A stretch of DNA of 64,000 nt. Source: Ecytonucleospora hepatopenaei. Its lineage: Eukaryota; Microsporidia; Enterocytozoonidae. Where the stretch lies: contig JAPMUG010000001.1 in NCBI GenBank assembly GCA_026692725.1, positions 124,001 through 188,000 on the forward strand. The letters run 5' to 3'. The position numbers and the translations under genes were made by a program. A model generated the notes under the pieces. The model had not been told where the DNA came from, searched no databases, and saw only the letters and a program-made list of their open reading frames with translations. Positions 9,984 through 60,490 of the stretch are shown in pieces. Numbering within the stretch: position 1 is the stretch's first letter; the number at the start of each line of letters is the position of its first letter.

Positions 9984-10840
9984 CATGGCGTTCTTTACTT
10001 TAGAGGAATGTTGAAGCGCACTGTCAACTGTTCATCTTGTGGCATGCAAATAAATACGGTTGAGTATAAGAGAAACAAAGATGGAATAGCGTTTAGGTGC
10101 GTCAATAAAAATTGTAGTGGATATTTGAATATCATTCTATACGCACTGAGTCATTACTGGCAAGTTTTACCATCTCCTTGGTGGATTTTTTAAAAATCAC
10201 ATGGAGATGGTTTAACAATTTTAAACAAAACCAGATATGCCTGAAAGCGGATGCTTCTAAAAGTTCTATAATAAAAGTTATAGATTTTTTAAGAAGTCCG
10301 TGCCACAAGCAAGTGGAAGAAAATCCAGTAAAACTTGGTGGTACTGACTGTGTTGTAGAAATTGACGAAAGTCTTTTTGTACACAAACAGAAGTACCACC
10401 GTTGAAGGCAGCCTAAAAGGGAATTTTGGGTTTTTGGTATGATAGATGGATCTGTAAAACCATGAAAGATTGTTTTAAAAACTGTTCCTGACCGTAAAGC
10501 AGAAACATTAATCCCGATTATTCGGAGTTCTGTAATGAAGGTACCATAATACATTCTGATTTGTGGAAAGCTTAATCGGGATTAAGCAGTAGCCTTCATT
10601 TTACCCATAAAACGGTTAATCATAGTGAAAACTTTGTTAATCCGACCAATGGTGTTCATACTCAAACAATTGAATCATTTTGGAATAGCTGCAAATATTT
10701 TGTAAAACAGCAAAAGGGTATTGTGGGCTTTAAAATAAATGTTTTTTGTCTGAAAGAATGTGGAAGCAAAATAAAGTGCTTCAGAAGGATTTGATGGGGT
10801 ATTTCATTTATTTAGATAAATTAAATTAGTTAGCTATATT
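9984..10840 (+). pseudogene. Broken ISXO2/IS1595-type (Merlin-like) transposase, relic 1
   Basis: Reading in several frames gives the order of an IS1595/ISXO2 transposase: an N-terminal zinc ribbon with 'VNCSSCGMQ' and 'FRCVNKNCSGY' (10008-10190), then after a frameshift 'CVVEIDESLFVHKQKYHRG' (first catalytic Asp, near 10350), 'FWVFGMIDGS', 'IIHSDLWKA' (second Asp, near 10550), '[20 protein letters not shown]' and '[15 protein letters not shown]' near 10610-10720. Several stops and at least two frame changes make it non-functional. Merlin DNA transposons carry this transposase type in eukaryotes and have been reported from microsporidia. The relic lies beside a second, more decayed copy. Confidence 0.82.
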
Positions 10841-11029: not shown

Positions 11030-11400
11030 AGATACAAAAGGGTGTCAAAGTATTATAGTTGAAATTGATGAAAGTAAATTTTTAAAGCACAAATAAAAAG
11101 AGGGTACAAGGTAGAAATTGTCTCGGATATTGTAAAAAAGAACAGCAGATAGGATAATAATTTTTTACTAGTAAAGAACGTATTTCAAATACTTTAGAGG
11201 CCTTTATTAGGAAACATTCCGCTCCTGGTTCTATAATTTTTACTGATCAGTTAAAATGGTATAGTAATTTATCAAAATACTATACTCTCAGACAATAAAC
11301 CACTCAAAATTGTTTGTGAATCCTATAAATGATGTTTATATGAATACAAATGAAGGTTATTGAGCTCCAATTAAACAAAATATTTACTAAAAATGGAAAA
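11030..11400 (+). pseudogene. Broken ISXO2/IS1595-type (Merlin-like) transposase, relic 2
   Basis: Fragments of the same family in mixed frames: 'IIVEIDESKFLKHK' around 11060-11095 (first catalytic Asp, followed by a stop), then near 11290-11380 'NHSKLFVNPINDVYMNTNEG'. The rest of the catalytic core is scrambled by stops and frame changes, and no zinc ribbon is visible. It is not a simple duplicate of relic 1, because the wording differs at many positions, so it represents an older or separate insertion. Confidence 0.7.
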
Positions 11401-11628: not shown

Positions 11629-12123
11629 TTAAAATTTATTCTTCTTAAAATTCTCATCTTTTTTCGTTATATAATTGTAACTTTGAAATTTGAAGTCATT
11701 AATATCGATTCCTTTGTTTGGGAAAAATTCTCTAGTATAGAGACTAAGAACTTCTTTAAAAATTTCAATGTCAGAAAAGGGTTTGCCTTCTCTGACTAAA
11801 ATTGCAGTTAAGCTATTTTCAAAAAGCTTTATTTTTGCCGCAAGATTGGTCCCTTCTGTTTTGACAAAGTGTTTATCGATTCTAGAATTCAAAAACCTAT
11901 CTTTAAGTTCTCTGGCTTTATCTATTCTAGAATCTTCACTAAGCTTCACTTCAGGTCTTAACCAATGTTTTCTATGCAAATGACTTTCAAGAGTATGTTT
12001 CTTGAAACTGGACGTAGCATAGTCGCAAAAAAGACATCTTGCTTTATCCTTATATTCAATAAAGAAATATAGGAACTCCCACTGTTTGTTGAATTTTCGT
12101 TGTTCTTTAGTTTTCTTTTCCAT
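11629..12123 (-). pseudogene. N-terminal fragment of a hAT-like (GTF2IRD2/ZBED type) transposon protein
   Basis: 164-residue open frame from an ATG. It begins with 'RKFNKQWEFLYFFIEYKDKA' and a CxxC...HxxxxH zinc finger ('RCLFCDYATSS' then 'HLHRKHW'), the arrangement of the BED/SPIN-DOC-like finger in animal GTF2IRD2-type hAT-derived proteins. A following piece 'ILVREGKPFSDIEIFKEVL' resembles the next conserved block of that group. The catalytic and dimerisation domains of a roughly 600-residue hAT transposase are absent, so it is a truncated remnant or a domesticated short protein. Resemblance to metazoan copies hints at horizontal transfer from an animal host; that is inference. Confidence 0.6.
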
Positions 12124-12739
12124 AAAATAATTATGGGTGTAAAAATTACAATACTTTTGAATGTTATACAGTTTAAATATTTTTTGTTTTTATTTTATTT
12201 ATTTAAAATGTCTTTTTTATATAAGATTTCATTTCTCAGTAATTATTATTTTATACTGTCAATAATTTTTAAATGTATAATAAAACAAAAAAATTATAAG
12301 ATTCTATGATAGAACATATAGTTTTAAATGATTTTATACATAAATATTTTCATACAAATCTAAAAAATTAAAAAATCATCCTTTTTATTTTAAATTTTTT
12401 AACAAGATTTAAGGTTTTTAAAAAATAAAATAAAATATTGTTTCTTTTTTTAAAAATGTATAAAAATATATAATATTGTTTATATACTTTTTAATGTATA
12501 TATTGTTTTTATTGTTTATTATGTATATAATAATATTAGTATTATTTATATTTATCCCCTAACTTATTTTATAATTATAAAATATTCTCCTTTATAATTT
12601 ATTTAAGTTTATTACAAATAACATAATATAATATTAAATTGATATAATATAACATTAGATTGAAACAATAATTTATAATATAATATTAGATTGATATAAT
12701 AATTTAATATAATATAAAACAGGATAATAATATAATAAT
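12124..12739. other. AT-rich intergenic region with short repeats
   Basis: Long A/T tracts; near 12620-12720 repeated units of the form AATATAATATTAgATTGATATAATA precede the formin start. No gene recognised. Confidence 0.5.
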
Positions 12740-21285: not shown

Positions 21286-21331
21286 TATCAGAATATTTTA
21301 TTAAATTTATTATTTTACTATATATTTATTT

Positions 21332-21572
21332 GGATAAATACAGCTACACCCTCAAAAAAATCTCAAAGCCCTCAAAAAAACCTCTAAACCAATAAATCAT
21401 TTAAACCAAATATTTACCTTGGTTAATTGAAAATAAAGCTTCTAATTTATGGGTCGAGATACATAATTTATGGGTTTAGAGATTAATTTAAGGGGCGTCG
21501 AACAGACTTTGTTGGTGAACAAATTTTTTTGAGGGCTTTGAGATTTTTTTGAGGGTCGAGAAATATCCACCC
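21332..21572 (-). mobile_element. 241-bp MITE-like element, copy 1
   Basis: Flanked by the 9-bp direct repeat TATTTATTT (21323-21331 and 21573-21581). It begins GGATAAATAC and ends ATATCCACCC. Inside each end, an inverted block of about 33 bp starts ACCCTCAAAAAAATCTC and continues AAAGCCCTCAAAAAAA. Same length and near-identical sequence to the copies at 27156 and 31574, in the opposite orientation. No open frame. Confidence 0.93.
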
Positions 21573-21851
21573 TATTTATTTTATAAATATAATTGTTATT
21601 TTATTAACTTTTTATTTTAAACAAATTAAAAATAAACTGTTTTTATGTATATATACAAATTTATTTACTACTATTTGTTTTACCACCGGTTCTTAAACTC
21701 TATTATCTGTCTAATATAATTCAAATTGCCAAAGATTCCTAAACTTCAATGTTTTCTGGCATCATTCTCCCTAACAGTATATAAACTACGCTCTTAGGAA
21801 ATTAAAAAATGCACCATGCGACTAAGACTACTGTTTTTTAACTTACAAAAA

Positions 21852-21946
21852 CACCCTACGGCTATCATCTTGCATTGGGATCACCATACACAAACTCACA
21901 TCAATCTATATAACATACATTAATGCCAAAGTGCTTCGGGCATAAG
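21852..21946 (-). repeat. Hairpin repeat family, diverged third copy
   Basis: On the minus strand this reads a CCGAAgcacTTTGG hairpin, CATTAATGTAT, then GTGAGTTTGTGTATGGTGAT and CCC followed by a diverged GATAGCCGTAGGG. It matches the copies at 25282 and 28091 but is shorter and more mutated. Confidence 0.65.
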
Positions 21947-22153
21947 AACAACTTAAAAATAAAATGTTTTTATGAAAGAAATATTTGGTTTTAAAAGTTA
22001 TAAGAGAAAAATAATAATTAAGAAATTATTTTTAAAAAGAAAAATTATAGAATTTTCTAATCTGTTGGTCGATTTCTTGATTAATTTGGTCTTATTGAAA
22101 AAAATGATTTTTTAAATTAAAAAATAAATGTTATGAATCAATGAGTTAACTTT

Positions 22154-22302
22154 ATATATATAAATTTATTGGATCAAGTGACAAATTTTCCCCCTACTAA
22201 TTTTATCAAGTGACAAATTTTCCCCCTACTAAACTCAAAACTCAAGTGACAATTTTTCCCCCGGGGGAAAAATTTGTCACTTGAGCCAATTTATTTACTA
22301 TA
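22154..22302. mobile_element. Palindrome-bearing MITE-like element
   Basis: Bounded by the 11-bp direct repeat GAGTTAACTTT (22143-22153 and 22303-22313). Its ends are inverted repeats of about 40 bp containing TCAAGTGACAAATTTTCCCC. Inside are three copies of that motif in direct order (22174, 22206, 22242) and one inverted, so that 22241-22285 forms a 45-bp near-perfect palindrome centred on CCCCCGGGGG with no loop. Confidence 0.7.
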
Positions 22303-23845
22303 GAGTTAACTTTTAATTAAAATTGTAGTTTAAAAGCGCTTTTGTTATATTCCGATCATTAAAAATTTTTAAAACTAAATAAAAATAAAAAACATTAGGT
22401 TATTTGGGAAAAAATTAAAAATCTGTTTAAGTAAAAAAAGACAAATTTTAAGATCATTTTCCATTAATTTAACCTTATAGTGACTTAAAAAAATGTGTGA
22501 AAACACAAAACAATTTTTGTTTTTAAAAAGACCAAATTAATTGGGAAAACGACCAACTAGATCTGAAAACTCTATATAATGCCAATATCTATATTTAATT
22601 TTTAAATATTAAATATAATTTTTATTTATCGACTTTAATCTATAGATTAAAAAATCAAAATTTTTAAAACAATTTTTTTGTTAAGAAAAAAATGTTATGA
22701 TAAAAAAATTAAATTAAAAAATTAATGTTAATTTAAAAAAACAATTAAAAATATTAAAGTAAAGTAAACATTTGCAATAAATTTAAAAATTTTTACAAAT
22801 TAATAAAAAAAATAGAGCACAAATGTGTATAAAAAACTTATATTTTAACATATTTATTAAATGAAATTTATTCAAAGACTGTAAAAAAACATAATCTTAT
22901 ATTTTTTGCAAACTCTTTATATGTTTTTGTTGATGTAAATTATTATAAAAATATTTTTTTAGATGAAAAAAAGATGCAAAAAATTTGTTTAAACAAATTT
23001 AAAAAAACATTTTTATCACATCCCAACACGTTGTTTTGTGATACAACTTTTACCTTAAATTTTAACAGATTTTTTTTATTTACAAAGTAAATATAATAAG
23101 TAAGAACTATGATTAAACTTTACATTATATACATCGGAACTGACATTAAAATAGTTTTGTCAGAAAATTAATTTAAAAAGTAATTTTGCCACTTAAAAGT
23201 TAAAAAAATAAACCAATCAGCATCATTCTTATTATTAATATATTGTTTTGATTTTTACTAAACTATTTTATTTATGAATTACCTTAGATGTGAAAATTTG
23301 TAATTTAAAAAATTTTTTGTTTAAAACTTACTTTTATAAGATGCAAACATAAAACAAAAGAAAAACGTTGTTAATATTTTAAAATTGTTGTTTATAGAAA
23401 GATTTAAACAAAAGTTTTAAAAAAATAAAATGTGTTTAAAAATTTAAAGAAAAAAAGTTTAAAAAATTAGCTTACTATCTTTAAAAAAATAAAAGTTAAC
23501 ATAACCTTGATTTTTTGAATATAAATAACAAAACTTTAAAAATAGTAAATATCAAAAAAACTTAAAAAAATTAAAACCATATCATTTTTAAAAAAACAAA
23601 AGAAATTTGTTAAGAAAACAAAAATTAAATAAAAACAAGGCATTTATAATAAAAAACATTTAAAACAATAATAAAAAACACAAAAAACTAATAAAAAAGT
23701 ACAGCCTGCATGAAATAAGTAAAAAATTATTTTAGATAAAAAATTTTAATAAAAACAAAAAAATAACGACAAATTTATAAAAGTATATTTTTGTTTTTTA
23801 ACATAGAACAGAAATATAAATTTTTTAAACTATTTTTAAATTCTT

Positions 23846-24045
23846 GATGGGTTGCAAATATTAAAACCAAAGCCCCAAAAAGTTTGAAGTTGACGGATGG
23901 CAAGATGGTCAGGTTTAAGTAGGGTAGGGCAAAGGCTAATAAAAAAGCACATCTAGTCTTAGGTATAAAAGAAAATACAAAAGTGTCAAGCGTTTTGATA
24001 TTTAATTTTTAAAAGTAGTAAATAAATTTTTAGTATAAAAAAACT
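23846..24045 (+). repeat. GC-patch repeat, copy 1 of 2
   Basis: Shares with 24508-24715 a core reading GACGGATGGCAA, GTCAGGTTT and TAGGGTAGGGCAAAG, and a 3' part reading AAATAAATTTTT. Such GC-rich conserved cores in a pure A/T background suggest a transcribed RNA or an old mobile element. No reading frame is conserved between the copies. Confidence 0.6.
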
Positions 24046-24507
24046 TTTAAATTAAAAAAATGTTTGATTTTGTTAAATACTTAGTTGTTTTTTAACAATA
24101 TTTTAAAAAGAGTTTTTATGTATTTTTTGAAAAATTTGTTTAAAAACAATAGTTTATAATGCAGTTTTTTAAAAAAATAAAAATAACACTTGTATGTATA
24201 ACAACACGCATTTGTTTTTTTGTATGAAAAAAATAAATTTATTTTTAAGTTGTAAAAACATGTACGTTGTTATAATTTTAAGACATCTTAAGAAAAATTT
24301 ATTATTTTTAAAGTTTAAGTAGTATTATGATTTTTACAACTAACGATTATTATTTTGTATAATTATATTTTAATAAATTAGTTTGTTACGTTTGTAAAAA
24401 AAAATCTGTTAAAGTTTCTTAAATAACATGGTAATTTTTTTGTCTTTTTATTTTTATAATTAACTTTTTTTTAAAAAATAGTAATTTGTTTAAATAAAAA
24501 ACCCTTA

Positions 24508-24715
24508 ATGGTGTTACAAAGACCGAAACCGAGGCCCCAGAAAAGTTTACACGAGACGGATGGCAAAGCTAGTCAGGTTTTAATAGGGTAGGGCAAAGAC
24601 ACATATATAAGCAAGGCTGGTTAAAGGACAAAGCAGTAAAGATAAAAAAAGTCTAGCGTGCAGTAAAATATTTATTTATAAGAAGTGGTAAATAAATTTT
24701 TGGTTGTAAAAATTT
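24508..24715 (+). repeat. GC-patch repeat, copy 2 of 2
   Basis: Second copy of the family at 23846, in the same orientation and about 660 bp away: GAGGCCCCAGAAAAGTTT, GACGGATGGCAA, GTCAGGTTTTAATAGGGTAG, then GTGGTAAATAAATTTTTGG. Confidence 0.6.
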
Positions 24716-25170
24716 TAAATATTTTTTATGCAACTTGTTTTTTTAATTGTTAGAAAACTTTTAAAATTTAATTTTGTTTGCAGTTATACAAATGTTATAT
24801 TTTTATACTTTGTTATAAAAAATTAGTGAAAAAAAACCTAAAAAAATCAAAAACAAATAAAAACATGCATTTTTTTAAAAATAAAAAATTAGCTCTAAAA
24901 AGAATAAAAACAAATTGCGAAAAAAAACCTTTTAAAGCAAAAAAACTTCCAATTTTATCCTTTTTAAAAATTAGATTACACAAATTTATATAGTAAAAAT
25001 AATATTTTAAAGTTTAATAAAAAGTTTGTATAATAAAATGTTGTTTATGGAACTTTTTATTATCTAAACGACAGCCCAAGACATAAAAAAATTTTGACTT
25101 TTCTTACTTTTTTATTTAATCTTTGTCTTTTGCATTATACTTTAATTACTTTTTTTTTAATTTCTAGTTA

Positions 25171-25259
25171 GGTACTTGTGAGGCATATTTTTAAAAACCT
25201 CTTAAGCAAGTACCCTTAAGGGGTGTTTGTTTAAATACACCCTATTTATCAAACAACCC
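25171..25259. repeat. Two adjacent hairpins
   Basis: GGTACTTGTGAGG (25171-25183) pairs with CCTC (25198-25201) and CAAGTACC (25207-25214). GGGTGT (221-226 of 25xxx) pairs with ACACCC (237-242), and a wider arm GGGGTGTTTG/CAAACAACCC (25220-25229/25250-25259) encloses it with one mismatch. They sit about 25 bp before a copy of the hairpin repeat family. Confidence 0.6.
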
Positions 25260-25281
25260 TTTACACATGGCTTGAAATTAA

Positions 25282-25463
25282 AGCTTTTGACCGAATCACT
25301 TCGGCATTATTGTATTTTATAAAATAGTGTGAGTTTGTGTATGGTGATCCCAAGGCGGGATGAAAGCCGCAGGTTTTTTTCTTGATTTTTTTATCATAAG
25401 GGCTTGTTTATTGCAAAAGTTAGAATGGTGTTTTTTATAGAATTTTCTGTGAGTAATTTAGTA
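25282..25463 (+). repeat. Hairpin repeat family, copy A
   Basis: About 182 bp, over 90 percent identical by eye to 28091-28272. It contains hairpin CCGAA-tcac-TTCGG, then GTGTGAGTTTGTGTATGGTG and a second hairpin ATCCC-aaggc-GGGAT, followed by TTTATTGCAAAAG and a 3' end AATTTTCTGTGAGTAATTTA. Confidence 0.8.
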
Positions 25464-27155
25464 ATGAATAAATTTGTATATTTATATTATAAAAAAACCT
25501 GATAAGTTTTGCCTTTTGTTTTTTTTGGATTTTTTGAAAGCCTTGGTTTTTAAAAAATAAACTTTTAATGCTTTTTTTAATTTTTTGTTAATTAAAACTT
25601 TGCACTAATTTCAAAATGTCAGTAGTTGTTTTTATAAACAATTTTTCTTGTATTTTTATTTATAGGCATGAGAAAAAATTATCGTGTTTAACCATGTAAC
25701 TTACTGCTTTATACAAAATTTTTTTACTTTAAATTAAAAACAAAAATTTATCTTTCCGTCATTACCATTTAAAATGTATCTGATTTTTTATGTTTTTAGC
25801 ACATTTTTTAGCTAATCAAGTCGTTTTTAAAATTTTTTTAAAAAAAATTTTTTAATAAAACTTTTTTTGGAATCAGTTTTTTTGTACAAATGTTTTTTTA
25901 GTTATATATTTAAAACTTTTTCAATAACTAAATAATTTTTAATATAACAAAAATGTATATTTCTTGAATACAGTACAGAAAAGTTTTCATTGGTGAAATT
26001 TATTGTTTTTTTACTATAAAACTTTTTGTTTCTTTTTAAAATAATTTTTTTTATTGCAATAATTGGTTAATTTTTTCAAAATAAAATATTTGCTTATAAA
26101 AAAAAGCATCAAAACCTTTTTTTGATTTAAATGCTTTTTATACTTAGCATCTAATCAAAAAAGTTTAAAAACTAAAAAAATTTATAAATTTTTTTTACAA
26201 GAAAATAATTTCTGCGCTTATAAATAAAATATAAAAATTTTTGCATTTAAATTAAGTTTTTAAAAAAAAGTTTGTAATATAAAAAGTATAAAAAATTTTT
26301 TTTAAATTGAACTGAAAAACTACAAATGTTTAAATTTCAAAACTCGTATTTTTCTAGAGAAAAAATAAATAATTTTTTATACGTTTATAAAAATAAAATT
26401 GTAAACAAAAACTTTTTGTAAACTTTCAAAAAGTTCTTTTATTTTATTTGATTTTTACTAATAAATTTTGTTTTTATATAATTGTTTAATGTAATATTTT
26501 TTTAAAAAATTGATTATTTTTAACTTGTCTTTAAAAAACGTTTTTAAAATAAAATTGAATTTAAAAAATGTATGAATACAGTAATAGTAAAAATATTTAG
26601 TTTTAAAAAATAAGCAATTTTTTATCTTTATTTGTTATGAAAAGAACTATGAAAACACAAATCTTATTTTATTTTAAAAAATTTATTAGAAAAAAGTTAA
26701 ATATAATATAAAAAAATTTAAAAACAAGAATTTGATAAATGTTTCCCTTCTAATCTTTTACCAATTTTTATATTAAATTTTTTAGTTTTTTTTCAAATTA
26801 AATTAAACTTAAAATCATTTTAAGTTTTAATTTTTGTAGAATTTTTTACAAAAAACAACTCATTTAAAATATACAATTGTCTTAAAAACAATAGCAAAAA
26901 TTGGTTAAACTGTCTTTTAAAGAAAGTATAAATTTTTAAAGGTTTTGTTTAAAAAAACTATCATTGTTTTTTTGAAAAAAACTTTATATTACCATACCAT
27001 AAAGATTCATGTTTTTTTAATGAAAATCATATGTTTTTTACATTTTTTCTAAAAGATAATTTAGCATTTAACATATAAAAATTCTTTTTTTTAGTTTTTT
27101 CATCTTATCTAATTTTTTTATATTTCAGCTTTTTTTCTTAAATACATTTTAACTT

Positions 27156-27396
27156 GGGTGGATATTTCTCGACCCTCAAAAAAATCTCAAAGCCCTCAAA
27201 AAAATTTGTTCACCAACAAAGTCTGTTCGACGCCCCTTAAATTAATCTCTAAACCCATAAATTATGTATCTCGACCCATAAATTAGAAGCTTTATTTTCA
27301 ATTAACCAAGGTAAATATTTGGTTTAAATGATTTAATGGTTTAGAGGTTTTTTTGAGGGCTTTGAGATTTTTTTGAGGGTGTAGCTGTATTTATCC
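27156..27396 (+). mobile_element. 241-bp MITE-like element, copy 2
   Basis: Starts GGGTGGATATTTCTCG and ends GTAGCTGTATTTATCC, flanked on both sides by the 9-bp direct repeat TTTTAACTT (27147-27155 and 27397-27405). Same 241-bp length and almost identical interior to copies at 21332 and 31574. Confidence 0.94.
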
Positions 27397-27782
27397 TTTT
27401 AACTTCAGTCTATATAATTTTTTAATTGAAACATTTGAATAAATTATTTTTTTAAGATCTCATTTTCGTATATTAAAAAGACAAAAAGCGTTTTTAGAAA
27501 TTCTTTATAAAGTTTAAAAACTAATAAAACAAAAAAATTGTTGATTACATCGAATTTTAACGTTTAAAAAGCAATAAAAAACGCAAAATCTTGTTATTAA
27601 TTTATCCAAAAATTTTTATAAAAGTTTATACATTTAGTGTTAAAAATAAAATTTAATTGATACACATATTATTTAAATTAAAAAAACTGTCTAACAATTA
27701 CACCAAATTTTAATACGATAATATCTACACTCTTCCAAAAGATATAAATTGTGTGTGCTGCGGCACCACTCAATATGAAAGC

Positions 27783-27861
27783 TTGGATCAAGTGCAAAAT
27801 TTTCCCCCTTGTAATTTTAACAAGTGACAAATTTCCCCCCTACTAAAACTCAAGTGACAAA
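27783..27861. repeat. Partial, diverged copy of the palindrome-bearing element
   Basis: Contains GGATCAAGTGCAAAATTTTC, then ACAAGTGACAAATTTCCCCC and CTCAAGTGACAAAT in the same order and spacing as the left part of the element at 22154, but the inverted right arm is missing. Confidence 0.65.
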
Positions 27862-28090
27862 TATTTATTAAATTAATATTCTACTCTATTGTTTCTTTAA
27901 TATTTTACATCTGTTTAGAGTACCTAGTTTATGAATAACATTAACAAGCTGTTTTTAAAATATTGTGTTTTTTTTTTGAATTTTTAAAAACAATAAATTT
28001 TAAGAAATTGATTTAGTAAAGTAAGGTTTTAAGACTCATAAGTATCATATTTTACATATAATTTAAAATTAAAGCATTTAATTTTAGTCT

Positions 28091-28272
28091 GAGCCTTTGA
28101 TCGAAGCCTTTCGGCATTATTGTATCGTATAGAATAGTGTGAGTTTGTGTATGGTGATCCCAAGGCGGGATGAAAGCCACAGGTTTTTTTCTTGATTTTT
28201 TTATCCTAAGGGCTTGTTTATTGCAAAAGCTAGAATGATGTTTTTTATAGAATTTTCTGTGAGTAATTTAGT
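28091..28272 (+). repeat. Hairpin repeat family, copy B
   Basis: Matches copy A at 25282 through the shared GTGTGAGTTTGTGTATGGTG block, the ATCCC-aaggc-GGGAT hairpin and the 3' end. The first hairpin reads CGAA-gcct-TTCG, keeping pairing although its sequence differs. Confidence 0.8.
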
Positions 28273-28682
28273 ATTGATTGATTGTGAATATATTTTAGTC
28301 TGTTTTTGTACAAGTTAATGTAAATTTGCATATTTTTATTCAATATGAAAAAACTATAAAATTTTAACATTAATTTAATATAAGGTGGCTTTTTATATAT
28401 TTTATGAACTTACATCTTGTATAACACTATTGTTTATGGTTTTTGTATCAAATTTTATTACAACGCTAATGTTTAATACAAAATTGTTTTTGTTTATATT
28501 GCATAAAATAACAACAAAATAAACAAAAATTAAAATTTTTTAAAAATGATTGTTATTGAATATTGTACAATATTTAGTCATCTTTTTTTATTACCTATTT
28601 GAGTATAATTTTTTAAAAAGACAAACAAAATTTAATTTTGTTTGTCACAAACATATAAACAAAAAAATTCATGCATAAACAA

Positions 28683-29069
28683 TGGTCCCCAATTGCCACA
28701 GGTCCCCGAAATCCAGGAGGCAATTCAGTAACACGCCTGGTACGCGTGGGGTCTTCTATATTTCTATGCAATTACGCGTCTTGTATAAAGCACTGTGTTG
28801 ACCCTCGCCTTTTTTGCGAGATCGGTTTTTATTATGAAGCGTGACATGAGGTTGGTTTTTCTGTAATGAGTGTTAGAGGTTGGTAGGAGTATATTTAGGG
28901 GGGATGGATGGGTTTTCGTGTAGTCGCATTTCTGTTGAATTAGGGGGGATGGATGGGTTTTCGTGTTTGGTCGCTTTTTCTGTTGGAATAGGGAGGATGG
29001 TTGGGTTGCGCGCGCTGTGAAAGGAATTTGGTAGGCCATGGTGCCGGTTAAACCAACCTCATGTCATGC
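28683..29069. other. GC-rich island with 20-bp inverted repeats and a small open frame
   Basis: Unlike its A/T-rich surroundings. Inverted arms GCGTGACATGAGGTTGGTTT (28839-28858) and its complement (29050-29069) match at 19 of 20 positions. Outside them, AATTGCC (28690) pairs with GGCAATT (28720), and CTCGC pairs with GCGAG around a T run near 28803-28820. Between the arms a 40-bp block with GGGGGGATGGATGGGTTTTC is duplicated. A 91-aa frame on the minus strand (29039-28764) with ATG repeats 'TKTHPSPL'; its reality is doubtful. The island could be a foreign fragment, a foldback element or a structured RNA. Confidence 0.5.
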
Positions 29070-29463
29070 ATTAGTAAGTTTTTCCTTTCTCAGAGTTTTT
29101 TTTTCTTTTTTAAATAAAAGTTTTTTTTTTCTTGTTTATTATATTTTTTCTATTTTATTGAAATTGGTAAAAAACAAACATTAGTAAACAAATGGAATAT
29201 TCTTTAATTTAAATAAATAACTTTAACACTATTATATATTATAAAACATTACAAAAGTGTTTAATTTTGTGCAAATTAAATCAAAAATGGATTAAAAACC
29301 TTTCTTAGTTTTTTATTTTCTTAAAGTTTATTTATTAAAGAAAATATGATTGAATTTTTTGAATATTCTTTACACGATTTAGTAACGAATAAATTTCAAT
29401 CAACAAAAAAACAACATTTTAGTTGTTAAAATAAAAAATAAAAAACATTGCACACTACATAAT

Positions 29464-30567
29464 TTAATTATAAAAAATTTCCACGTTATCATCATGTAAA
29501 TCTATTATTGCATAATAATTACGCCTACATTCAGGTAAATTTACAATTGTGGTATCATACACTTTCTTTACAAAAGGTTTTGTATCACACGCCAAAACAA
29601 CAAAATTAGGAGCATTTTTTAAGCTTAAATCTGTTTTTATGAAAGGATTTGCAGACATTTGAGAAATATACGTTTCCAAAAAAGAATCCAATGGTTTTTT
29701 ATTAAGAAAAACCCCTGTTCCCTTATATTTTATCCAGTCATGGTCTAAAAACACCAAGTTACGGCTGTTAAATTCGATTACACACGGATTAGTTGCTTTT
29801 ATAATGTTAGAGTCTATTTTTTCATCATCATTCATAACAGGAAATATATTTTCTATACTTTTTTTACACACCACCGTTGTAACAGGAGTGTTTGTCATTT
29901 TATTTAAGTCATCACAAGAAACCACAAATAACTCAGGCATATGAATTTTACAAATATCAAAAATATCCTTTCTGTTAAAATCAATGTTGTTAACCAAACA
30001 AATTTTTACTTTCTTTTTTTCTAAAAATTGATTTATATAATTTGTATAAAATGGCACAGGAAGGTGAACATTTTCCACTAAAAACTTCTTTTTTTCCTTA
30101 ACGCCTTCCAAACAAACAAAAATATTCTCATGCAAAAATGCATTGCTCTTGCAAATACTGAAATCAAGGGATATACACTCGTGTTCGTCTTCAAGCATGG
30201 GATTTCCAAACCTGTCGCTATAAAACATTCCAAATATCTTATACTTATATCCTTCCTGCAATAATGCTATTTGCTTTAAATCGTGTGCAAATTGTTTCTT
30301 TATGTTTTCCAAAATGTTTATATTTCTTTTATGCGCATGTTTAAAGTTTTTGACAGCAAAAAAGGTATTCTCGCTTTTTCGTGTCTGTAGAAGTTCGTCG
30401 ACCTGAGCAAGCTGCAGCGTGTCACCGTAGCATTTTGATTTATACGATGCCAAAAAATTGTTTATATCGTTTCTATCTGTAAATTTGTCAGCCATGTATT
30501 CAAGTGCATCCATGCTTATTTTAATTCCATTTTCCTGTGTTAAGACCTTATAGATGAGTTTTTTCAT
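29464..30567 (-). CDS. DPB2: DNA polymerase epsilon subunit B (Dpb2)-like
   Basis: 367 residues from ATG 30567, preceded by TTGCCC. The N-terminal 'KLIYKVLTQENGIKISMDAL' resembles the helical N-terminal domain of DNA polymerase epsilon subunit 2, and 'YKIFGMFYSDRFGNPMLED' with 'ECISLDFS' resembles its OB-fold region. The C-terminal 'PNFVVLACDTKPFVKKVYDT' and 'CRRNYYAIIDLHDDNVEIF' match the inactive calcineurin-like end of B-subunits. The B-subunit stabilises the leading-strand polymerase and links it to the CMG helicase. It is shorter than yeast Dpb2 (689). Alternative B-subunits (delta, alpha) are possible but fit less well. Confidence 0.66.
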   Translation of the reverse strand: MKKLIYKVLTQENGIKISMDALEYMADKFTDRNDINNFLASYKSKCYGDTLQLAQVDELLQTRKSENTFFAVKNFKHAHKRNINILENIKKQFAHDLKQIALLQEGYKYKIFGMFYSDRFGNPMLEDEHECISLDFSICKSNAFLHENIFVCLEGVKEKKKFLVENVHLPVPFYTNYINQFLEKKKVKICLVNNIDFNRKDIFDICKIHMPELFVVSCDDLNKMTNTPVTTVVCKKSIENIFPVMNDDEKIDSNIIKATNPCVIEFNSRNLVFLDHDWIKYKGTGVFLNKKPLDSFLETYISQMSANPFIKTDLSLKNAPNFVVLACDTKPFVKKVYDTTIVNLPECRRNYYAIIDLHDDNVEIFYN

Positions 30568-30766
30568 GGGCAATTTTTTAAAAAAGTTTTTGTCTTTCTT
30601 AGTTGTTATATATTTTTTATATAAACATCTTATCTTGTTTTTCTACATGTATATATTATAAAATAAAATTTTATGATCTTAAATACAATTCTTTTTTTAT
30701 AAAATATTATTCTATTTTTATAAAATACAATTTTATTTATTATATCAAATATAAAGTTTATTTAAA

Positions 30767-31414
30767 TCATTTGTTCTTCTTTGTTTCTTTAACAAACTTT
30801 GCAAGAAGTTCTTCATATTTGTCTTTTAAGCGTAAATATGCTTTTTTATTTTGGTCAATCTGAGAAATTTCTTCAATCTGTGTTTCTACCTTCTTACAAA
30901 GCTTTTTTATTTTATCCTCGAGTTGCTTGTTTTTCTCCTGTTCTGCATTGTATTTGTCAACCACACTTTTCAAAAAATCCTCTGCATTTTTATGCTGTTT
31001 AATGATGTACGTGTTATCTTTGGCACTTGAAAAATTCTTGTCCAATATGGTAACGAGTCTTCTCAGGTTAAAATACAAAAATATGGCAAATGCACACAAA
31101 TACATATTTCTTTGTGACTGGTATTCAAGCAACTTGCTCTCTGTAATGTTCATCTTGTATGCAGAATCAACCAACAAGACACCAATCATTACGTAGAAGA
31201 TGTTAAAAATGTGTCTTATTGTTTTAAATACCATGTTATAAGCATAAAATTGTATAAACCACCGTTTTACATTGTCAAACCAAGGAAAAAGCAAAATAAC
31301 ATTCATAAGTAAATTTATTCCTAACACTACGTGAATGACAGTAGTTTGAACTTCCATGGGTAAAAAAACATTAGTAAAAAAACTGTTATGAAACACATGT
31401 TTCTTCTTAAACAT
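30767..31414 (-). CDS. BAP31/Yet-family ER membrane protein
   Basis: Up to 215 residues. From the ATG at 31357 (Met20) the order is three hydrophobic spans, then 'QRNMYLCAFAIFLYFNLRRL' (a hallmark of BAP31/Yet1/Yet3), then a coiled coil (about 130-210) and a C-terminal KKNK, a KKxx dilysine signal for ER retrieval. The upstream ATG at 31414 would add a short basic segment before the usual BAP31-like start, and CCC sits directly before 31357 (ACCCATG), so 31357 is preferred. BAP31-type proteins act as chaperones/cargo receptors for ER membrane proteins. Convergent or tail relation with Dpb2-like gene on the same strand. Confidence 0.8.
   Translation of the reverse strand: MFKKKHVFHNSFFTNVFLPMEVQTTVIHVVLGINLLMNVILLFPWFDNVKRWFIQFYAYNMVFKTIRHIFNIFYVMIGVLLVDSAYKMNITESKLLEYQSQRNMYLCAFAIFLYFNLRRLVTILDKNFSSAKDNTYIIKQHKNAEDFLKSVVDKYNAEQEKNKQLEDKIKKLCKKVETQIEEISQIDQNKKAYLRLKDKYEELLAKFVKETKKNK
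31358..31361 (-). promoter_or_regulatory. CCC start-proximal signal at the BAP31-like ATG
   Basis: Minus-strand ACCCATG; supports Met at 31357 as the start. Confidence 0.4.
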
Positions 31415-31573
31415 TTAATTATTCTTATTTGAAAACATATATACAAATGAATAAACTACACAAATCCAATTCTAATCCTTCTCTAGTGAATCACTTCTAT
31501 CGTTATGGTAATCTTCCTGAGGATCACGACAAAAACATTAGTAAAAAAACATTAACCAGATATAATTTTAAAT
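31415..31573. other. Spacer with a GC-richer patch and a 19-bp direct repeat
   Basis: AAAAACATTAGTAAAAAAAC occurs at about 31364-31383 and again at about 31532-31551, so the 150 bp between them may be an insertion or a duplication. The patch 31474-31530 (TTCTCTAGTGAATCACTTCT and following) is less A/T-rich than usual and is unexplained. Confidence 0.4.
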
Positions 31574-31814
31574 GGGTGGATATTTCTCGACCCTCAAAAA
31601 AATCTTAAAGCCCTCAAAAAAATTTGTTCACCAACAAAGTCTGTTCGACGCCCCTTAAATTAATCTCTAAACCCATAAATTATGTATCTCGACCCATAAA
31701 TTAGAAGCTTTATTTTCAATTAACCAAGGTAAATATTTGGTTTAAATGATTTAATGGTTTAGAGGTTTTTTTGAGGGCTTTGAGATTTTTTTGAGGGTGT
31801 AGCTGTATTTATCA
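31574..31814 (+). mobile_element. 241-bp MITE-like element, copy 3
   Basis: Begins GGGTGGATATTTCTCG and ends GTAGCTGTATTTATCA, the last base differing from copies 1 and 2. Flanked by the perfect 9-bp direct repeat ATTTTAAAT (31565-31573 and 31815-31823). One internal difference (TCTTAAAG for TCTCAAAG) in the left inverted block. It lies between the BAP31-like and eRF1 genes, so the family also inserts among genes. Confidence 0.94.
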
Positions 31815-31909
31815 ATTTTAAATATTTAACCTTAGAGTTATCCAACTATACTTTTTTATTAACTAAAATAATTTAAATAATAAAATTATACTTTATATTA
31901 CTAAATTTA

Positions 31910-39443: not shown

Positions 39444-42400
39444 TTATATTTCCATATATTTATCCCATATTGTCTTAAACTTATTTTCAAATATATTTAA
39501 ATTATTTATATCTGATAACCACTGTGTATTATATGATAAAATATTTGTATTCTTTTCTTTTCCTGTTTTATAACATGTGATATCATTGGTTTCTATGTAT
39601 ATTTCCTTATTATTATACCAAATTAATTTATCACATGATTCCTTCTTTTTCTTTATAATTTCCTCACTCTTTGTAATTTCCTCACTCTTTATAATCTCAA
39701 CAATCTTTAACAAAACATCATTTTCAATTGTATTCTTTACATCATCTAATGTATTATTGGTATTCTTTACATCATCTAATGTATTATTGACATTTTCTAT
39801 AGCAATCTTTTCACTATTAGTGTAAATTATCTTTTCCCTACACAATTCCACCGTTATGTCGCTTTTGTTCTTCATTTCTTTGTTTTCCTCAGTATATGAA
39901 TTATTTGTGTTTATAACCAGTATTTCACCCATACTATCCATAGATGTGGATATTCTAAGAATATTCCCATTACTAACATATACCTTGTATGTAATACCAT
40001 TTATAACAATACTATATATAACATATATGATGTTATTATCAGTAATATTACCATTTATACCATTATTTATGTTAATTTTATTATCATTACTTATGTTATA
40101 TTCTAATTTGCTATTGCACAGTATATCATCACTCTTTATATCATTATTTATGTTATGCTTGCTATTGCTAATGTTTTTCTCAATTTCTTTTATTTTTATA
40201 TTGCTATGCACCACCCTATCATCCACCCCTGTAAAGTGTATTTTACCTACCTTCATCCTCAAGGTGTATAATATTCTATTTTTATATTGTTTTATAATCT
40301 GGTAGTTAGAAGGGGTGTACAGCAAGTTAAATATAAATTCCTTAATATCATCGTGGTAATAATCAAAATCACAGTAACCCTTATTTTTAAGAACAATCTG
40401 ATAAATGTTACCGTTACTACAATTATTATTATTACTGTTAGTTGTTTTACTCTTTTTTACATTATTTTCATCATAAATATTTATATTATTTATATTATTT
40501 ATATTATTTAATGTATTTATATTATTTATATTTTTACCAATAAATTCTATTTCATCCTCATTATCCAGCATACCATGCACTACTATTCCCACATCCTTAC
40601 GCACTCCTCCGTATTTTATCATTCCACCCTGTTTTAGCATCACTTCCTTGGTCATTCCTATTTTCTTGTGAATGCTCATGTCAATTCCCACCACAAAAGC
40701 AATCTTAAACAGAGCGTCATTAGCCATGCCAAAACACACATCCAAATAATTAAAATACTCAGTATAAAATACATTAGTTTTGTATGTATTATTACCATAT
40801 TTATTAGTATTATTAGTATTATTAGTATTATCATATTTATTAGTATTATATATATTATCATATTTATTAGTATTATATATATTACAACTATTTTTAATAT
40901 TACAACTATTTTTAATATTATTAGTATTATTAGTATTATTAGTGTTTATATTCATTTTTTCATTTATCATTAATAATACATTTATTATCTTATCCATTTC
41001 TGTTATACTGTGCATATTACTCAATAGCATCAAATTAAAGGTATCTTTAAACAATTTCATTCTTATTTCATTAGTGTTGTTGAATAAATATAACATTCTA
41101 TTATAATCAGCATATACTTTAATATATTGATTATCAATTATAGAATAATCATTAAAATAGTATTTGTTACTAACATTATTGTTATTTTTTAATATATCAT
41201 TTTTATTATCATTATTTAATTTATCATTATTAGTAGTATTATTAGTAGAATTATTTAATTTATCATTTTTAGTAGAATTATTTAATTTATCATTATTAGT
41301 ATCATTTTTAGTAGAATTATTTAAATTACTACTATTTAATTTATTATTTAATTTATCATTATTTAAATTACTATTACTATTTATGTTACTTTCCCTATGC
41401 TCTACATATATATTACTATTTAACTCACATACATTTAAATTATGACTTATTGGTAATGTTTTTTTATTTATACTTTTTCTTTTATCTTCTGTTATTTTAA
41501 CATATTTAATATGATTATTTAAATTACTATTATTTAAATTACTACTATTATATAAATTACTATTATTATTTAAATTACTATTGTGATTATGATTATTAAT
41601 TATTACACTATACATTCCTGTATCTTTTGTACACCTATATATATTTATATACTGTGATGCATTACGATATTTCCTTACTATACTTTTTAACTCTTTTACC
41701 AGGTCGCTATCTTTGGAAAGAAACAATTCTTCCTCTCTTTTTACTCCATACTTGTTCATAAGCATCCTCACATCCATTTTGTATTCCTGGATCAGAGGAT
41801 CAGACACATTTTTATCTGCTGGATATGCATATGCTCCACTGCCTCTCAGCACCACCTTGTTAACTGCTGTCATATCATCCAGTACCTCGTAGTAGCAGTT
41901 CATGCACTCACAGGTATTGCCGCTCTGTCTGAACTTGGAACGGCGGTACATGCACCCGAGCGCCTTGGTGGAGCGGTAGGCCGGAGCCACTTCCATAAAG
42001 TCCGGGTACTCGGTCGGGGTAAGATCTACGCTCATGGATGCATATGTTCCTGTCTTTACAAAGTCAATGCTGCGGTTGAAAAGTTCACTCAGCTTCAGAG
42101 TCGTAGGGGCGCACACCCCCTCCTTGTCGGCGTGTGCCTGGTGTGCTACAGCAATGAGTCCCAGCTGGTGCGTCTTCATGTGCTTGATGAAAAAGTTGAC
42201 CACATCCTTTCCCAGGACAGTCTCCTTGGTAAAGCTGTGTCCGCCTACGTAGTCGTAGGATTCAAAAGTCTTGTGAGGTATGAGCAGGTCGTTCCAGCTG
42301 ATGCTGTAAATATCGCCGTCCAAGTCGCTTCCCGAGCACTGGTTAAAAACAGGTCTCCTCCCCTTCTGGGAAAAGACCAGAACTTCCTTGAGGTAGTGGA

Positions 42401-45400
42401 GTTCAGGCCTGTCAACACACTTGACAATTCGTATGTCACCAGGGTGCATGCAAGGGTTCTTGGCAACAATAGCAATGCCAGTAGGAACAGCATATTCACC
42501 ATAAATGTTAATCTTTCTCTTATTATTACCATTATATAAATTACTGTATAAATTATTATTACTTACATTACTGTATAAATTAGTATTACTGTTATTTATA
42601 TTACTGTTTATATTACTGTTATTTACATTACTGTTTATATTACTGTTATGTATGTTATAACATATAAATACTTCATCCTCTTCTAATATTTTCATTTCAT
42701 CTGTTACACCCATAGCTGTCCTGCCATATGGTACAAATATTCTACTCTTTTGATTAACTTCTTCTAATAAATAATTTATAGTGGCATATAACATTTTATT
42801 ACAATAAATATTACTGTTATTATAATTATTGTTATTATAATTATAATTATATGTATTACTGCTATTATAATTATTTTCATTATATAATTTTATTATGCTA
42901 TGCTTATTTATAAATTTTATACTATCTGTTAATGCTTCTTTTAAAATAGATTGCAAATAATTATCTTGTAGCTTAGTAAATGTAGCTATAGGTATTCCCA
43001 TGGCTTCTAATAGCATAACAATCTGTCTATTTAAGTAAAAGTCATGTGACTTGGTATCAGTGCATACTTCAATAACATTATGAGAGGATTTGAATTTAAC
43101 CATACTTTTCCTAAGAATTATAATATTATCAAAAATATTACTGTTATTATTTATATTACTGCTATTTCTTAAATTATTATTTTTTAAATTATTATATATA
43201 TTACTGTTATTATTTAAATTATATATATTACTGTTATTTTTTATATTACTGTTATATTCTATTATATTCTTTTTATTACTTAATATATCTCTTATTACTT
43301 CATCTGGCTGTACTGTCACCACTCCCTTTGCCCCTCCAAATCGTATTTGAAATGCACTCGGTATTTTAGACAGCTTTAGAGCATTACTCACCCTGGCTGC
43401 CACCCTCCTGGATATAACGCCAGCACCATCAGTAAAGTTGTATCCGTTCCTCTCCATGTCCCTGATCACGTAACTGTGGTTTACAGAAACACTCTCCCTG
43501 GTGGCAGAAAAAGCCTGTCCAATCCTCACAGCATACTTTCCAATGCACCTGATGTCCTTGAAGTCGCCAATCCACTCCCTAACAGAGTCAGTGCCAATAA
43601 CCAGGGGTACTTCATGTTTGTTGTTTAAATGTAAATTAAGCTTAACATCACTAATATTGTTATTGTTATTACTGTTATTGTTATTATTACTGTTATATTC
43701 TATATTACTTATATTATTATATTCTATATTACTTATATTATTATATTCTATATTAGTATTATCACCATAATATTCTTCTGTTTCTTCAGAACAATATTCA
43801 TCACTAAGATTACTATTATCTGTAATATTACTATTACCTATATTACCATTATCTTTTATATGATTATTTACTATATATGTGCTAATAAACCATGCATTAT
43901 GTGATGTCATCTGACTGGTTGTCATCACCAAAAAGAAGTATTTCCTATCCCCTGCATATATTCCCTCCTGCATCACGTGCCTAAAGTAGTCATAGACTCT
44001 CTCCGAGTTCCTCACCATTTCGTTCTGGAACCTCTCGTCCTCTTCCTCCCTAAAGCCAACCCTAACAAACTTGTCTATGTCGAAGTGCCTCAACACCCTA
44101 TTGCCCTCATTGACCTGTTCGTAGTTATATATTATTTGTAAAGGAGTGATGGTAATGGATCTAATCTTACTATATTTGTTATTATATTTATTGTTATTAT
44201 ATTTATTGTTATTATATAAATTACTGTTATTATATTTATTATTATTATATAAATTACTGTTACTGTTATATTCCTTTATTATCTTATATATATCTATTTT
44301 ATCCAATCTATTAGTTAGTCTCTTCTCTATATATTTACTAAATGTATTCATCTTTACATTATCCCTAATATACTGTAAGTCACCAGTAGTAAAGATATCA
44401 GTCAAATACCTACCCTTCCTAGAGAGCAAGCACAGTAGGTTATAGTAGTCATCATATTCATTAGGAGAGTAAGCATTAGTAAAGAAATTATTAATATCAG
44501 TAATATTACATAATAATGTATTAGTATTATCTGTAATATTAGTATTATCTGTATTATTATCTGTAATATTATCATATATTTTTATATTACTATTTAAACT
44601 ATTACTGATATTACTATTATATATATTACTATTATATTCATATATTTCACTATATACTATCTGTGGATAATATCTATTTAATATTTGTATTATACTATCT
44701 ACTACTGCTTCTGGTGGGGCACCCTTCAGGTTCACGTCACTGGCTGCCTGCACTGGACAGGACTGCTCCATGGCAAATGACACCCTCATGTCGCTCCTCT
44801 GCTCGTACCACCCTATCTCTCGCTGGCTGCACCTGCTCCAGCACGCAGCAGCCAGCAGTGACACATCTGCGTATTTATAGCACGTACTGAGATACATATG
44901 GTCATCACACTGATATACCTTAGGAGGGTATTTAAGACACAGATAGGCATTGATGGTATTATCATTTATATTATTGTTTGTGTTATTATGTATATTATTA
45001 TTTAATATATTACTGTTATTATCATTTATATTGTTACTGTTATTATCATTTAATATATTACTATTTGTGTTACTGTTATGTATATTATTATAATTTACTA
45101 TTATATTTTCTATTATATTATTATGTATTATTATCATATATTTATTAAAATATATAGTAATATTTTTATTAGTAAAATATATAAGATAATTATTACATAA
45201 TATATTATTACTGTTATTTATATTATTATTAGTATTATCATATAATAAATTATTATTATTAGTATTATCATATAATATATTACTGTTATTTATATTACTG
45301 TTATTATCATATAATATATTAGTATTATTAGTAGTATATTCTACCTCTCTTATATATTTATAATAACTTACTACACTTCCTATGCTTACACTCTTACACT

Positions 45401-47333: not shown

Positions 47334-47704
47334 TATAATACAATATATAATATATTTATAATATAATTTTATAATAAAATATATAATATATTTATAATTA
47401 TAATATAATTTTATAATATATTTATAATATAATATATAATATATTTATACTTTATATGGTGGTATAAAAATTTTATAAAAGAAAATATAAAATATAGTAA
47501 ATTAATTTATTATTATATGTAGTATATAATAAATTATGTTAATATAAATATATTATATTTTATGTAATATAAACATATAATATAAATATATTATAAAAAT
47601 AGTATATTGTTTTATATTGTATTTGATAGGTTAAAATATTAAAAAACTAATTAAGAGTTATTATGGTAGTAAATATAATATAAAACTATTTATTACAAAA
47701 TATT
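47334..47704. other. AT-rich spacer, nothing recognised
   Basis: 371 bp of almost pure A/T with repeated TATAATATATTTATAATA-type units just upstream of the RdRP start codon. Confidence 0.5.
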
Positions 47705-56739: not shown

Positions 56740-57516
56740 TTATACTCTTTTTGTATAATTCATACTATTCAAACCTTGCATTTCTCCAAACCCAAACTCA
56801 TTTTTATTCTTCTCTTCTTTTACCTTTCTTTCTATGTTTATGCCACTTTCTTTGTTTGTAAAAACATATGAATAATATACGTAAAAGAAGTCAATGTATA
56901 ATCCAGTCTGAACAAGTGCAGTTATAATCATAAACATGTCTATTCCTCTTCTTTGCATACGAAGAATTACAAAATGTATCAAATAACATGCCCTGTACAA
57001 TCCAAGGGTAATTATGTAATGCCCTGTCATAGATTCACAGTCTTCTGTTTCCTGCGTCATTACCAGCTGCGGAAGAATTGCTACGCTTTCCAAAACCAGG
57101 GAAATGTTATAACAAAGTTCCTCATAGTAAGACCAAAAAGAAGCCCTGGTAACCAACAATCCTACAATTCCACCCACCGCCAAAAGCACAGTTATTGGAA
57201 AATTATCATATCTCTTGTTGTATGTCTTATTATATTTGTAAAAAATAAAAAATACCATCACTGTTTGGTAACCAATGAAAATGCTCTTTATAATGTTTGC
57301 ATAAATTATTCTCCAGCTGTACCTGAACCAGTGGCGCAGGTGCAGGTAGCGCAAGCAGTATGTGATCAGGTAAAGAAGGTTAGTCTTAAGACTCAGTCCG
57401 CTGACAGAGCGTGTCTTTATAACCTTTCTCAACATAATTACCCTGGCAGCAATAAGCAAGTATTCTGCAGCATTACAAAAAATTGAGCTGATTATGTTTA
57501 AAACTGTATTATTCAT
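56740..57516 (-). CDS. ERD2: ERD2/KDEL-receptor homologue, copy 1
   Basis: 258 residues, ATG 57516, seven hydrophobic segments. Family signatures: 'KTRSVSGLSLKTNLLYL', 'RYLHL' (56-60), 'LESVAILPQLVMTQETEDCE' (about 142-161) and 'LGLYRACYLIHF' (171-182). ERD2 retrieves HDEL/KDEL-tailed ER proteins from the Golgi. The ligand-site Arg in the GLYR motif is present. This is the first of three tandem paralogues on the minus strand. It is longer than the usual 210-220 residues because of a charged tail (225-258). Confidence 0.9.
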   Translation of the reverse strand: MNNTVLNIISSIFCNAAEYLLIAARVIMLRKVIKTRSVSGLSLKTNLLYLITYCLRYLHLRHWFRYSWRIIYANIIKSIFIGYQTVMVFFIFYKYNKTYNKRYDNFPITVLLAVGGIVGLLVTRASFWSYYEELCYNISLVLESVAILPQLVMTQETEDCESMTGHYIITLGLYRACYLIHFVILRMQRRGIDMFMIITALVQTGLYIDFFYVYYSYVFTNKESGINIERKVKEEKNKNEFGFGEMQGLNSMNYTKRV

Positions 57517-57897
57517 ATAAAATATGTTTAAAAAATATAATATTGTTAAATTATATAATTATATAATTATATTATAAATTTTAAATATTCTTATTAAAAT
57601 ATATATAAAATAACCTTAAATAAACTTTAAATATATAAAAATAAACTAACTGTATATCTATAAACAAACTAACTGTATATCTAAATAAATAAAAATATAT
57701 CTATAAATAAATTGTAAGGGGTTATAAAATTTTATATGTAAAAATAAAGGATATAAAAATGATTAGCTGTTAGAATCTTGAAATATTTTATTAAGTTTTC
57801 TTTAAAATATATTGTATATAAACATATAACAGTATGTTATACTACTTATCATATAAAACATATACTATTTTATAAATGACCAATAACATTTCATACA
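57517..57897. other. AT-rich spacer inside the ERD2 cluster
   Basis: 381 bp, with repeated 'AACTGTATATCTA(A)ATAAA' units near 57650-57700; nothing gene-like seen. Confidence 0.5.
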
Positions 57898-59124: not shown

Positions 59125-59363
59125 TTGTTTTTGTTAGTAAAAAATATAATAAGGGGAAAAATTAATATTTATATGCCTATGTTTTCTATGTTCTAAAAAA
59201 TTATTTTAAAAAGTAAAGTATAAAATGTTTCATATAAAATGTTATTAACATAAAACATTTGTGCAAATATATAAAATATTAATACATATAAGAATAAAAC
59301 AAATTTAATCTACATAAAATATTATATTTTAATTATCAATTTTTAAATTTACAATTTGATTTT

Positions 59364-60068: not shown

Positions 60069-60490
60069 ATTATAGGGGTATTTTATTTGTTATAAACAAA
60101 TTGCTAATAGTTTTTAATTAAAAAAATATATTTAGCTATCTTAATATATGTTTAGAATTATATTTTAATAAACTTACATAATTTAAGCTTAAAAGCATAA
60201 ATTTACAAAAACCTTATTTTATTAGTGATAAATATTACAACATTAATTTAAAATTTTTTAGTTAAATAAACTGATTTAAAACTGATATGATTCTTATAAT
60301 TGATTTTTCAATTTAATTTAAAAAGGGATTTATAAAAAAATAAATATTATAAAACAATATTATATATTTTAAACAAAGGAATAAAAGTAAAAAAATCTAA
60401 CTGTATTTTACTATAAAGAAATAATTTTATAGTAATATATTTTATAGTAAACAATTAACTTAAATACTGAAAAATTTATTAGCCCTAATT
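60069..60490. other. AT-rich spacer between divergent genes
   Basis: 422 bp with no gene. At the left edge lies ATACCCCTATAATATG (minus strand) for the ERD2 copy 3 start; at the right edge TTAGCCCTAATTATG precedes the PSP1-domain gene. Both hold a CCC shortly before ATG. Confidence 0.5.

Follow-up and report, generated by a model that had tools for sequence, protein, structure and literature searches.

A 241-bp miniature inverted-repeat element family with iteron-bearing arms in Ecytonucleospora hepatopenaei

We analyzed a 64,000-nucleotide stretch of Ecytonucleospora hepatopenaei DNA (the window; C5:124001-188000 of a 3.09-Mb genome assembly in 13 contigs) and found that three near-identical 241-bp repeats within it belong to a family of miniature inverted-repeat transposable elements (MITEs) with at least 20 distinct members in the assembly. 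Judged from its sequences, the family is real and recently active, and its arms clearly record concerted evolution. It is a new MITE family of a known kind and an orphan, no partner element having been found; a survey of the literature surfaced no publication on an E. hepatopenaei MITE, although a survey at the level of titles does not establish absence from print. A 20–21-bp iteron array and a coordinated change of both arms are additions to what a first-pass annotation of the window had described. The explanation that best covers the whole, which we hold with moderate confidence, is a MITE family of E. hepatopenaei with a putative iteron-binding DDE transposase, perhaps of the Merlin type.

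Copies and target duplications

Copy 1 (locus L002) lies on the minus strand at 21332–21572 of the window (C5:145332-145572), copy 2 (L001, the reference copy) on the plus strand at 27156–27396 (C5:151156-151396) and copy 3 (L003) on the plus strand at 31574–31814 (C5:155574-155814). Each is 241 bp long, and pairwise identity is 99–100%. Copies 1 and 2 differ at one site and copies 2 and 3 at two, the substitutions in copy 3 falling at position 33, inside the left inverted block, and at the final base, which is A, not C. The subterminal inverted blocks of copy 2, at 27172–27204 (plus strand; element positions 17–49) and 27348–27380 (minus strand; element positions 193–225), are 33 bp long and form a perfect inverted repeat; 33/33 positions also pair in copy 1 and 32/33 in copy 3. 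Every copy is flanked by its own exact 9-bp direct repeat: TATTTATTT on the low-coordinate (21323–21331) and high-coordinate (21573–21581) sides of copy 1, TTTTAACTT to the left (27147–27155) and right (27397–27405) of copy 2, and ATTTTAAAT to the left (31565–31573) and right (31815–31823) of copy 3. The near-identical copies, the inverted blocks of about 33 bp and the separate perfect duplications had been described in the first-pass annotation, and all are confirmed.

Its further claim of three independent recent insertions is supported by the differing flanks and differing duplications. Segmental duplication or gene conversion, in place of separate insertions, would suit copies that are this similar and all lie within 10.5 kb, but it is hardly credible against flanks that differ and three different 9-mers that sit exactly at the element ends. 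The simulated probability of finding three copies within 10.5 kb was 0.0032, 0.0179 or 0.0335 for 9, 16 or 20 copies, respectively. We do not claim local hopping from this result: the clustering test was post hoc, and another cluster of elements lies at C5:459-472 kb.

The 241-bp query gave 41 matching pieces in the assembly, which were sorted by place into distinct elements and yield counts that are lower bounds. Among the at least 20 elements so recovered were 16 near-full-length copies (L001–L016; 219–241 bp, with 14 of them at 240–241 bp), one copy (L017 plus L020) split by an insertion of about 440 bp, and three elements that are partial or decayed (L018, L019 and L022). Querying with two divergent copies added no places in the assembly, and the exact arm pattern had no match in viral contigs. 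In the two copies tested, the longest stop-to-stop frame was 42 codons (L001) and 28 codons (L010). By these features the MITE is a non-autonomous DNA transposon with no coding capacity, and its copies are, to judge by their near-identity, recent.

The target duplication has a fixed length. Exact end repeats of 9 bp occur in nine of the 16 near-full-length copies and one of 5 bp in a single copy, with none of 6–8 or 10–13 bp; L014 matches at 8/9 positions. As a control, left and right flanks of different copies were paired, giving one exact 9-mer in 240 cross-pairs, so that the exact 9-bp repeats exceed chance. The split copy is also flanked by an exact 9-bp duplication, and L018 by one that matches, by eye, at 8/9 positions. 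The ten exact duplications are 97% A+T, and the flanks 71–84% A+T. Joined flanks of the 16 copies, when compared with the window and a set of extracted loci alone, revealed no empty site. All five spanning matches (four for L002 and one for L016) lay at the copies' own places. Each started at base 181 or 184 of its 200-bp left flank, and we attribute them to chance overlap at the junction.

Other dispersed repeats are present in some of the flanks. The right flank of L004 matches sequence beside and inside the insertion that interrupts the split copy on C6, at 91% over 214 bp and at 88% over 101 bp. The ends of that ~440-bp insertion, in the split copy at C6:95576-96255, resemble another inverted-repeat element.

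Iterons and concerted change of the arms

The termini are GG...CC in 14 of the 16 near-full-length copies, L003 and L015 being the exceptions. Across the outermost 16 bp, the two ends agree at 8/16 positions in eight of the nine copies checked, copies 1 and 2 included, and at 7 in L014. The 33-bp blocks pair at 33/33 positions in five of the 16 copies, at 27–32 in ten and at 18 in L016, which carries a deletion. An 8-bp core (CCCATAAA or CCCTCAAA) recurs every 20–21 bp, six times from the left end and three times, on the other strand, from the right end. In copy 2 the left array (27173–27282, plus strand) has cores from element positions 18, 38, 58, 79, 99 and 120, which match at 6–8 of 8 bases, and the right array (27332–27379, minus strand) has cores at 18, 38 and 58 from the right end, which match at 8, 8 and 6 of 8. 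Left cores score 6–8 of 8 in the three copies scored; the third right core scores 6/8 in L001 and L010 and below 6 in L005.

In each of two copies tested, autocorrelation of the first 140 bp stood above shuffled sequences at lags 20, 21 and 41, with z-scores of 4.6 and 5.4 at lag 20 and 4.6 and 4.8 at lag 41; the shuffles, here and in the end comparisons below, were home-made and kept dinucleotide content only approximately. The iteron architecture is unusually regular. As inverted arms would lead one to expect, the element is predicted to fold into a long hairpin, with a z-score of -9.5 as RNA and -8.3 as DNA.

The outer iterons F1, F2, R1 and R2 distinguish two subfamilies. They read CCCTC in subfamily TC (L001–L007 and L009), with one extra substitution in R1 of L004 and L009, and CCCAT or a one-base variant in L010–L012; in L014 and L015, F1 is intermediate (CCCTT) and the rest is mostly of the AT type. 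When one copy per subfamily was compared (L001 and L010), all 19 differences fell in positions 1–80 or 193–241 and none in 81–192, a restriction to the arms with a binomial P of about 7e-6 for an arm/core border set after the alignment had been inspected. Each of the six right-arm changes is matched by its exact complement at the mirrored position of the left arm (P about 3e-9 in a simple random-placement model), and the first-iteron changes at 21, 22 and 29 recur in the second iteron at 41, 42 and 49. L005 and L010 differ at 26 positions, seven of them in 81–192, and four of these seven are AT to TC changes in F5 and F6; the change extends to these two iterons in L005, L006 and L007. A uniform switch is contradicted by F4 and R3, which are unswitched, by F3, which is altered otherwise (CCCAT to CCAAC), and by F5 and F6, which are still AT in L001–L004. 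L008 and L013 are mosaics of both types, and L013 has the right-end type at both ends; both lack a target duplication, as would be expected of recombination products.

We consider the concerted change best explained by arm-to-arm and iteron-to-iteron conversion, which selection for matching binding sites may have aided. A selected switch of transposase specificity, acting in place of inter-arm conversion, would also leave AT to TC shared by F1, F2, R1 and R2, and by F5 and F6 in L005–L007, around a core that is identical in L001 and L010. We think such a switch possible but rather unlikely: conversion alone yields the same pattern, the two mosaics show exchange between the subfamilies, and the unswitched F4 and R3, the differently changed F3 and the AT-type F5 and F6 of L001–L004 speak against it. 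It is distinctly improbable, in our estimate, that the arms act as a multi-site docking array whose four outer sites changed together from CCCATAAA to CCCTCAAA following a changed enzyme specificity, possibly that of a transposase lineage absent from the assembly.

Candidate transposases

In the mechanism that we propose, a DDE transposase supplied in trans would bind the iteron arrays as putative binding sites. The iterons are about two helical turns apart and would therefore lie on one face of the DNA. The transposase would pair the two arms, cut at the 5'-GG ends and join across a 9-bp stagger. We put at about even the odds that this enzyme belongs to the Merlin type, whether as a resident Merlin that recognizes ends loosely or as one that has diverged or been lost.

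Merlin transposons, as the consulted part of PMC8101967 describes them, make 8- or 9-bp duplications and have 5'-GG ends and inverted repeats of 24–462 bp; the duplication length and GG ends match those of the MITE. A profile search of the assembly with PF12762 gave 18 Merlin places, 16 of them over the cut-off. Two proteins attributed to E. hepatopenaei match Merlin loci of the assembly at 100% along their full lengths of 258 and 219 residues. Four of these loci (L062, L063, L064 and L071) could be delimited as elements by a search that required GG...CC ends, and all four have exact 9-bp duplications, so that an enzyme with the right stagger is in the genome. L063 and L064 form one family (97% identical), and L064 has an uninterrupted 271-amino acid (aa) frame with an IS1595 domain. 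A fifth candidate, L072, was dropped for one mismatch and a weak inverted repeat, and the remaining 13 loci gave no delimited element. Beside the Merlin copy L066 (C2:113 kb region) are a long perfect tandem array of 8-bp period and more tandem repeats.

The window itself holds Merlin relics, which had been placed about 11 kb from the MITE and do lie 10.0–10.8 kb from copy 1. The first (10522–10695, plus strand; DDE_Tnp_IS1595) scores 27.6 bits, barely above the cut-off of 27, has one stop inside and has no element ends that could be delimited; the second and weaker (11164–11301, plus strand) scores 19.8 bits, below the cut-off, and also has one stop inside. Next to them, a 186-aa frame at 11629–12189 on the minus strand gives a weak match, below the cut-off, to a zinc finger (PF18658).

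Several results weigh against a Merlin-moved, iteron-reading MITE family. In comparisons of the MITE ends with those of the four delimited Merlins, 31 of 32 gave z below 3, the best being 3.8, so that the comparison of ends proposed in the first-pass annotation turned out negative. Ends of different Merlin families are mostly alike (z 2.7, 5.4, 5.6 and 10.5 for four pairs), a contrast that is strong but not absolute, as one Merlin pair (z 2.7) falls below the best MITE comparison. No 20-bp periodicity was detected in the four Merlins over 140 bp at one end each. Within the MITE, off-phase core matches appear at positions 29, 49, 50 and 57 at the 6/8 threshold. Six of the 16 near-full-length copies (L004, L008, L009, L013, L015 and L016) have no duplication, their flanks matching at 3–5 of 9 positions, as unrelated flanks do; for L015 and L016 the ends were placed by alignment and are less certain. 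Finally, searching the assembly with end patterns at up to three mismatches found no longer element with MITE ends.

In that search the right-end pattern hit 66 places: 20 with 0–1 mismatch, all MITE copies, one with two mismatches and 45 with three (48 places for the reversed control). The left-end pattern hit 20, of which 17 were at MITE copies and three, each with three mismatches, elsewhere (two for the control). None of the four nearest non-MITE places (the right-end place with two mismatches and the three left-end places) has an exact second copy of its flanking 9-mer on the inner side of the stretch that was read. Open frames of 152–749 aa enclose three of them, and the fourth leads into a simple repeat, the positions having been taken by hand. 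The 45 right-end places with three mismatches were not inspected, and a partner with more diverged ends would escape this search. Orphan MITEs are frequent. The failure to share ends with an autonomous element weakens the superfamily assignment, not the MITE label.

These data bear on the first-pass suggestion of a Merlin or Mutator-like origin. The 9-bp length fits both, and the GG ends and resident 9-bp Merlins favor Merlin, but Merlin membership is not borne out by the comparison of ends. Unlike Merlin transposons, the MITE has no transposase, and its ends cannot be aligned with those of the four resident elements, so it probably did not arise from any of them by simple deletion. Among the nearest described systems are the Merlin-like MITEs of Nosema bombycis, also short non-coding inverted-repeat elements of a microsporidian, whose duplication length and ends were the grounds for placing them with Merlin and which have 8-bp duplications and 24–34-bp inverted repeats in Table 1 of PMC4405373. 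By that description, rather than by sequence, the present family differs in its 9-bp duplications, its imperfect outer 16 bp and its 20–21-bp iteron array.

A Mutator-like element (MULE) transposase of Foldback type, now lost, divergent or missing from the assembly, would be an alternative mover, and one that we consider unlikely. Its attraction lies in architecture. According to the portion of PMC5225508 consulted, Muta1, a MULE of Aedes aegypti with many non-autonomous derivatives, makes 8- or 9-bp duplications and has 145-bp ends composed of a 10-bp terminal motif and nine copies of a 12-bp repeat with 3–4-bp spacers. The MITE likewise joins a terminal segment, of 16 bp, to subterminal tandem repeats and has a compatible duplication length, within the 8–10-bp range of MULEs; unlike Muta1, it repeats an 8-bp core every 20–21 bp, and no MULE transposase was found here. 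One Mutator-like MITE family, with 10-bp duplications, is listed for N. bombycis in the part of PMC4405373 consulted. Against this stand the MULE profiles PF10551, PF00872 and PF03108, which were unmatched in the assembly, with positive controls that were prokaryotic only and an assembly that may be incomplete; PF21056 (ZSWIM RNaseH-like) was also unmatched, but its controls gave no signal. A term search of the available text of PMC4202319 returned no mention of Mutator or MULE.

Internally repetitive arms are also a feature of Galileo, of the P superfamily, and of Foldback-like elements, as the consulted parts of PMC3688188 and PMC3573991 describe them. In Galileo, the transposase was shown to contact sites within the arm repeats through its DNA-binding domain (PMC3688188). 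Unlike the MITE, Galileo has arms of about 300 bp to 1.2 kb and belongs to another superfamily (PMC3688188, PMC3573991).

The mover may instead come from neither superfamily, being an unknown transposase or a transient one that arrived horizontally and was then lost. No place other than a MITE copy matches the MITE ends closely (the four nearest candidates were rejected), the ends are unlike those of the four resident Merlins, and the MULE models and DDE_Tnp_1 are unmatched in the assembly, all of which would agree with such an enzyme. We nevertheless regard it as doubtful: the resident Merlins have the same duplication length and GG ends, so that no extra enzyme is needed, and the most recent copies, with 1–2 differences in 241 bp, imply a mover that was active not long ago. 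We retain a putative iteron-binding DDE transposase, perhaps of the Merlin type, as the preferred mover.

Profiles of IS256-type and DDE_Tnp_1 transposases had no match in the assembly. The hAT profile had three, two of them over the cut-off. hAT transposons make 8-bp duplications and were set aside as movers against the 9 bp of the MITE. Just outside the window, at C5:122385-122507 on the minus strand, a hAT dimerisation domain lies in a 467-aa open frame.

Genomic surroundings and significance

Copy 1 starts 47 bp past the end of a ribonucleotide reductase large-subunit frame, and copy 3 is flanked on one side by a Bap31-like frame and on the other by the end of an eRF1 frame. Copy 2 is within an AT-rich stretch without long frames, which also holds a second repeat pair at 25282–25481 and 28092–28291 (200 nt, 91% identity); a related 63–66-bp piece is found, inverted, at 21848–21913. 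The frame at 39447–47444 on the minus strand, 2666 aa long, contains an RNA-dependent RNA polymerase domain (PF05183, 462 bits) along with long asparagine-rich stretches. This frame suggests an RNA interference pathway that could act on hairpin transcripts. Three neighboring, similar-looking frames on the minus strand (56740–57558, 58354–59133 and 59364–60089), one of which matches the endoplasmic reticulum (ER) lumen protein retaining receptor (PF00810), likely form a tandem gene family.

The movers of MITEs are often assigned by duplication length and ends, and here two candidate superfamilies have the same length. With ends that speak against simple derivation by deletion from the delimited resident Merlins, this family makes a clean test case for cross-mobilisation. 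The phase-locked iterons and mirrored arm changes offer two natural sets of candidate binding sites in which co-evolution of MITE arms and transposase may be studied. The recent copies could also serve as presence/absence markers among isolates of this shrimp parasite.

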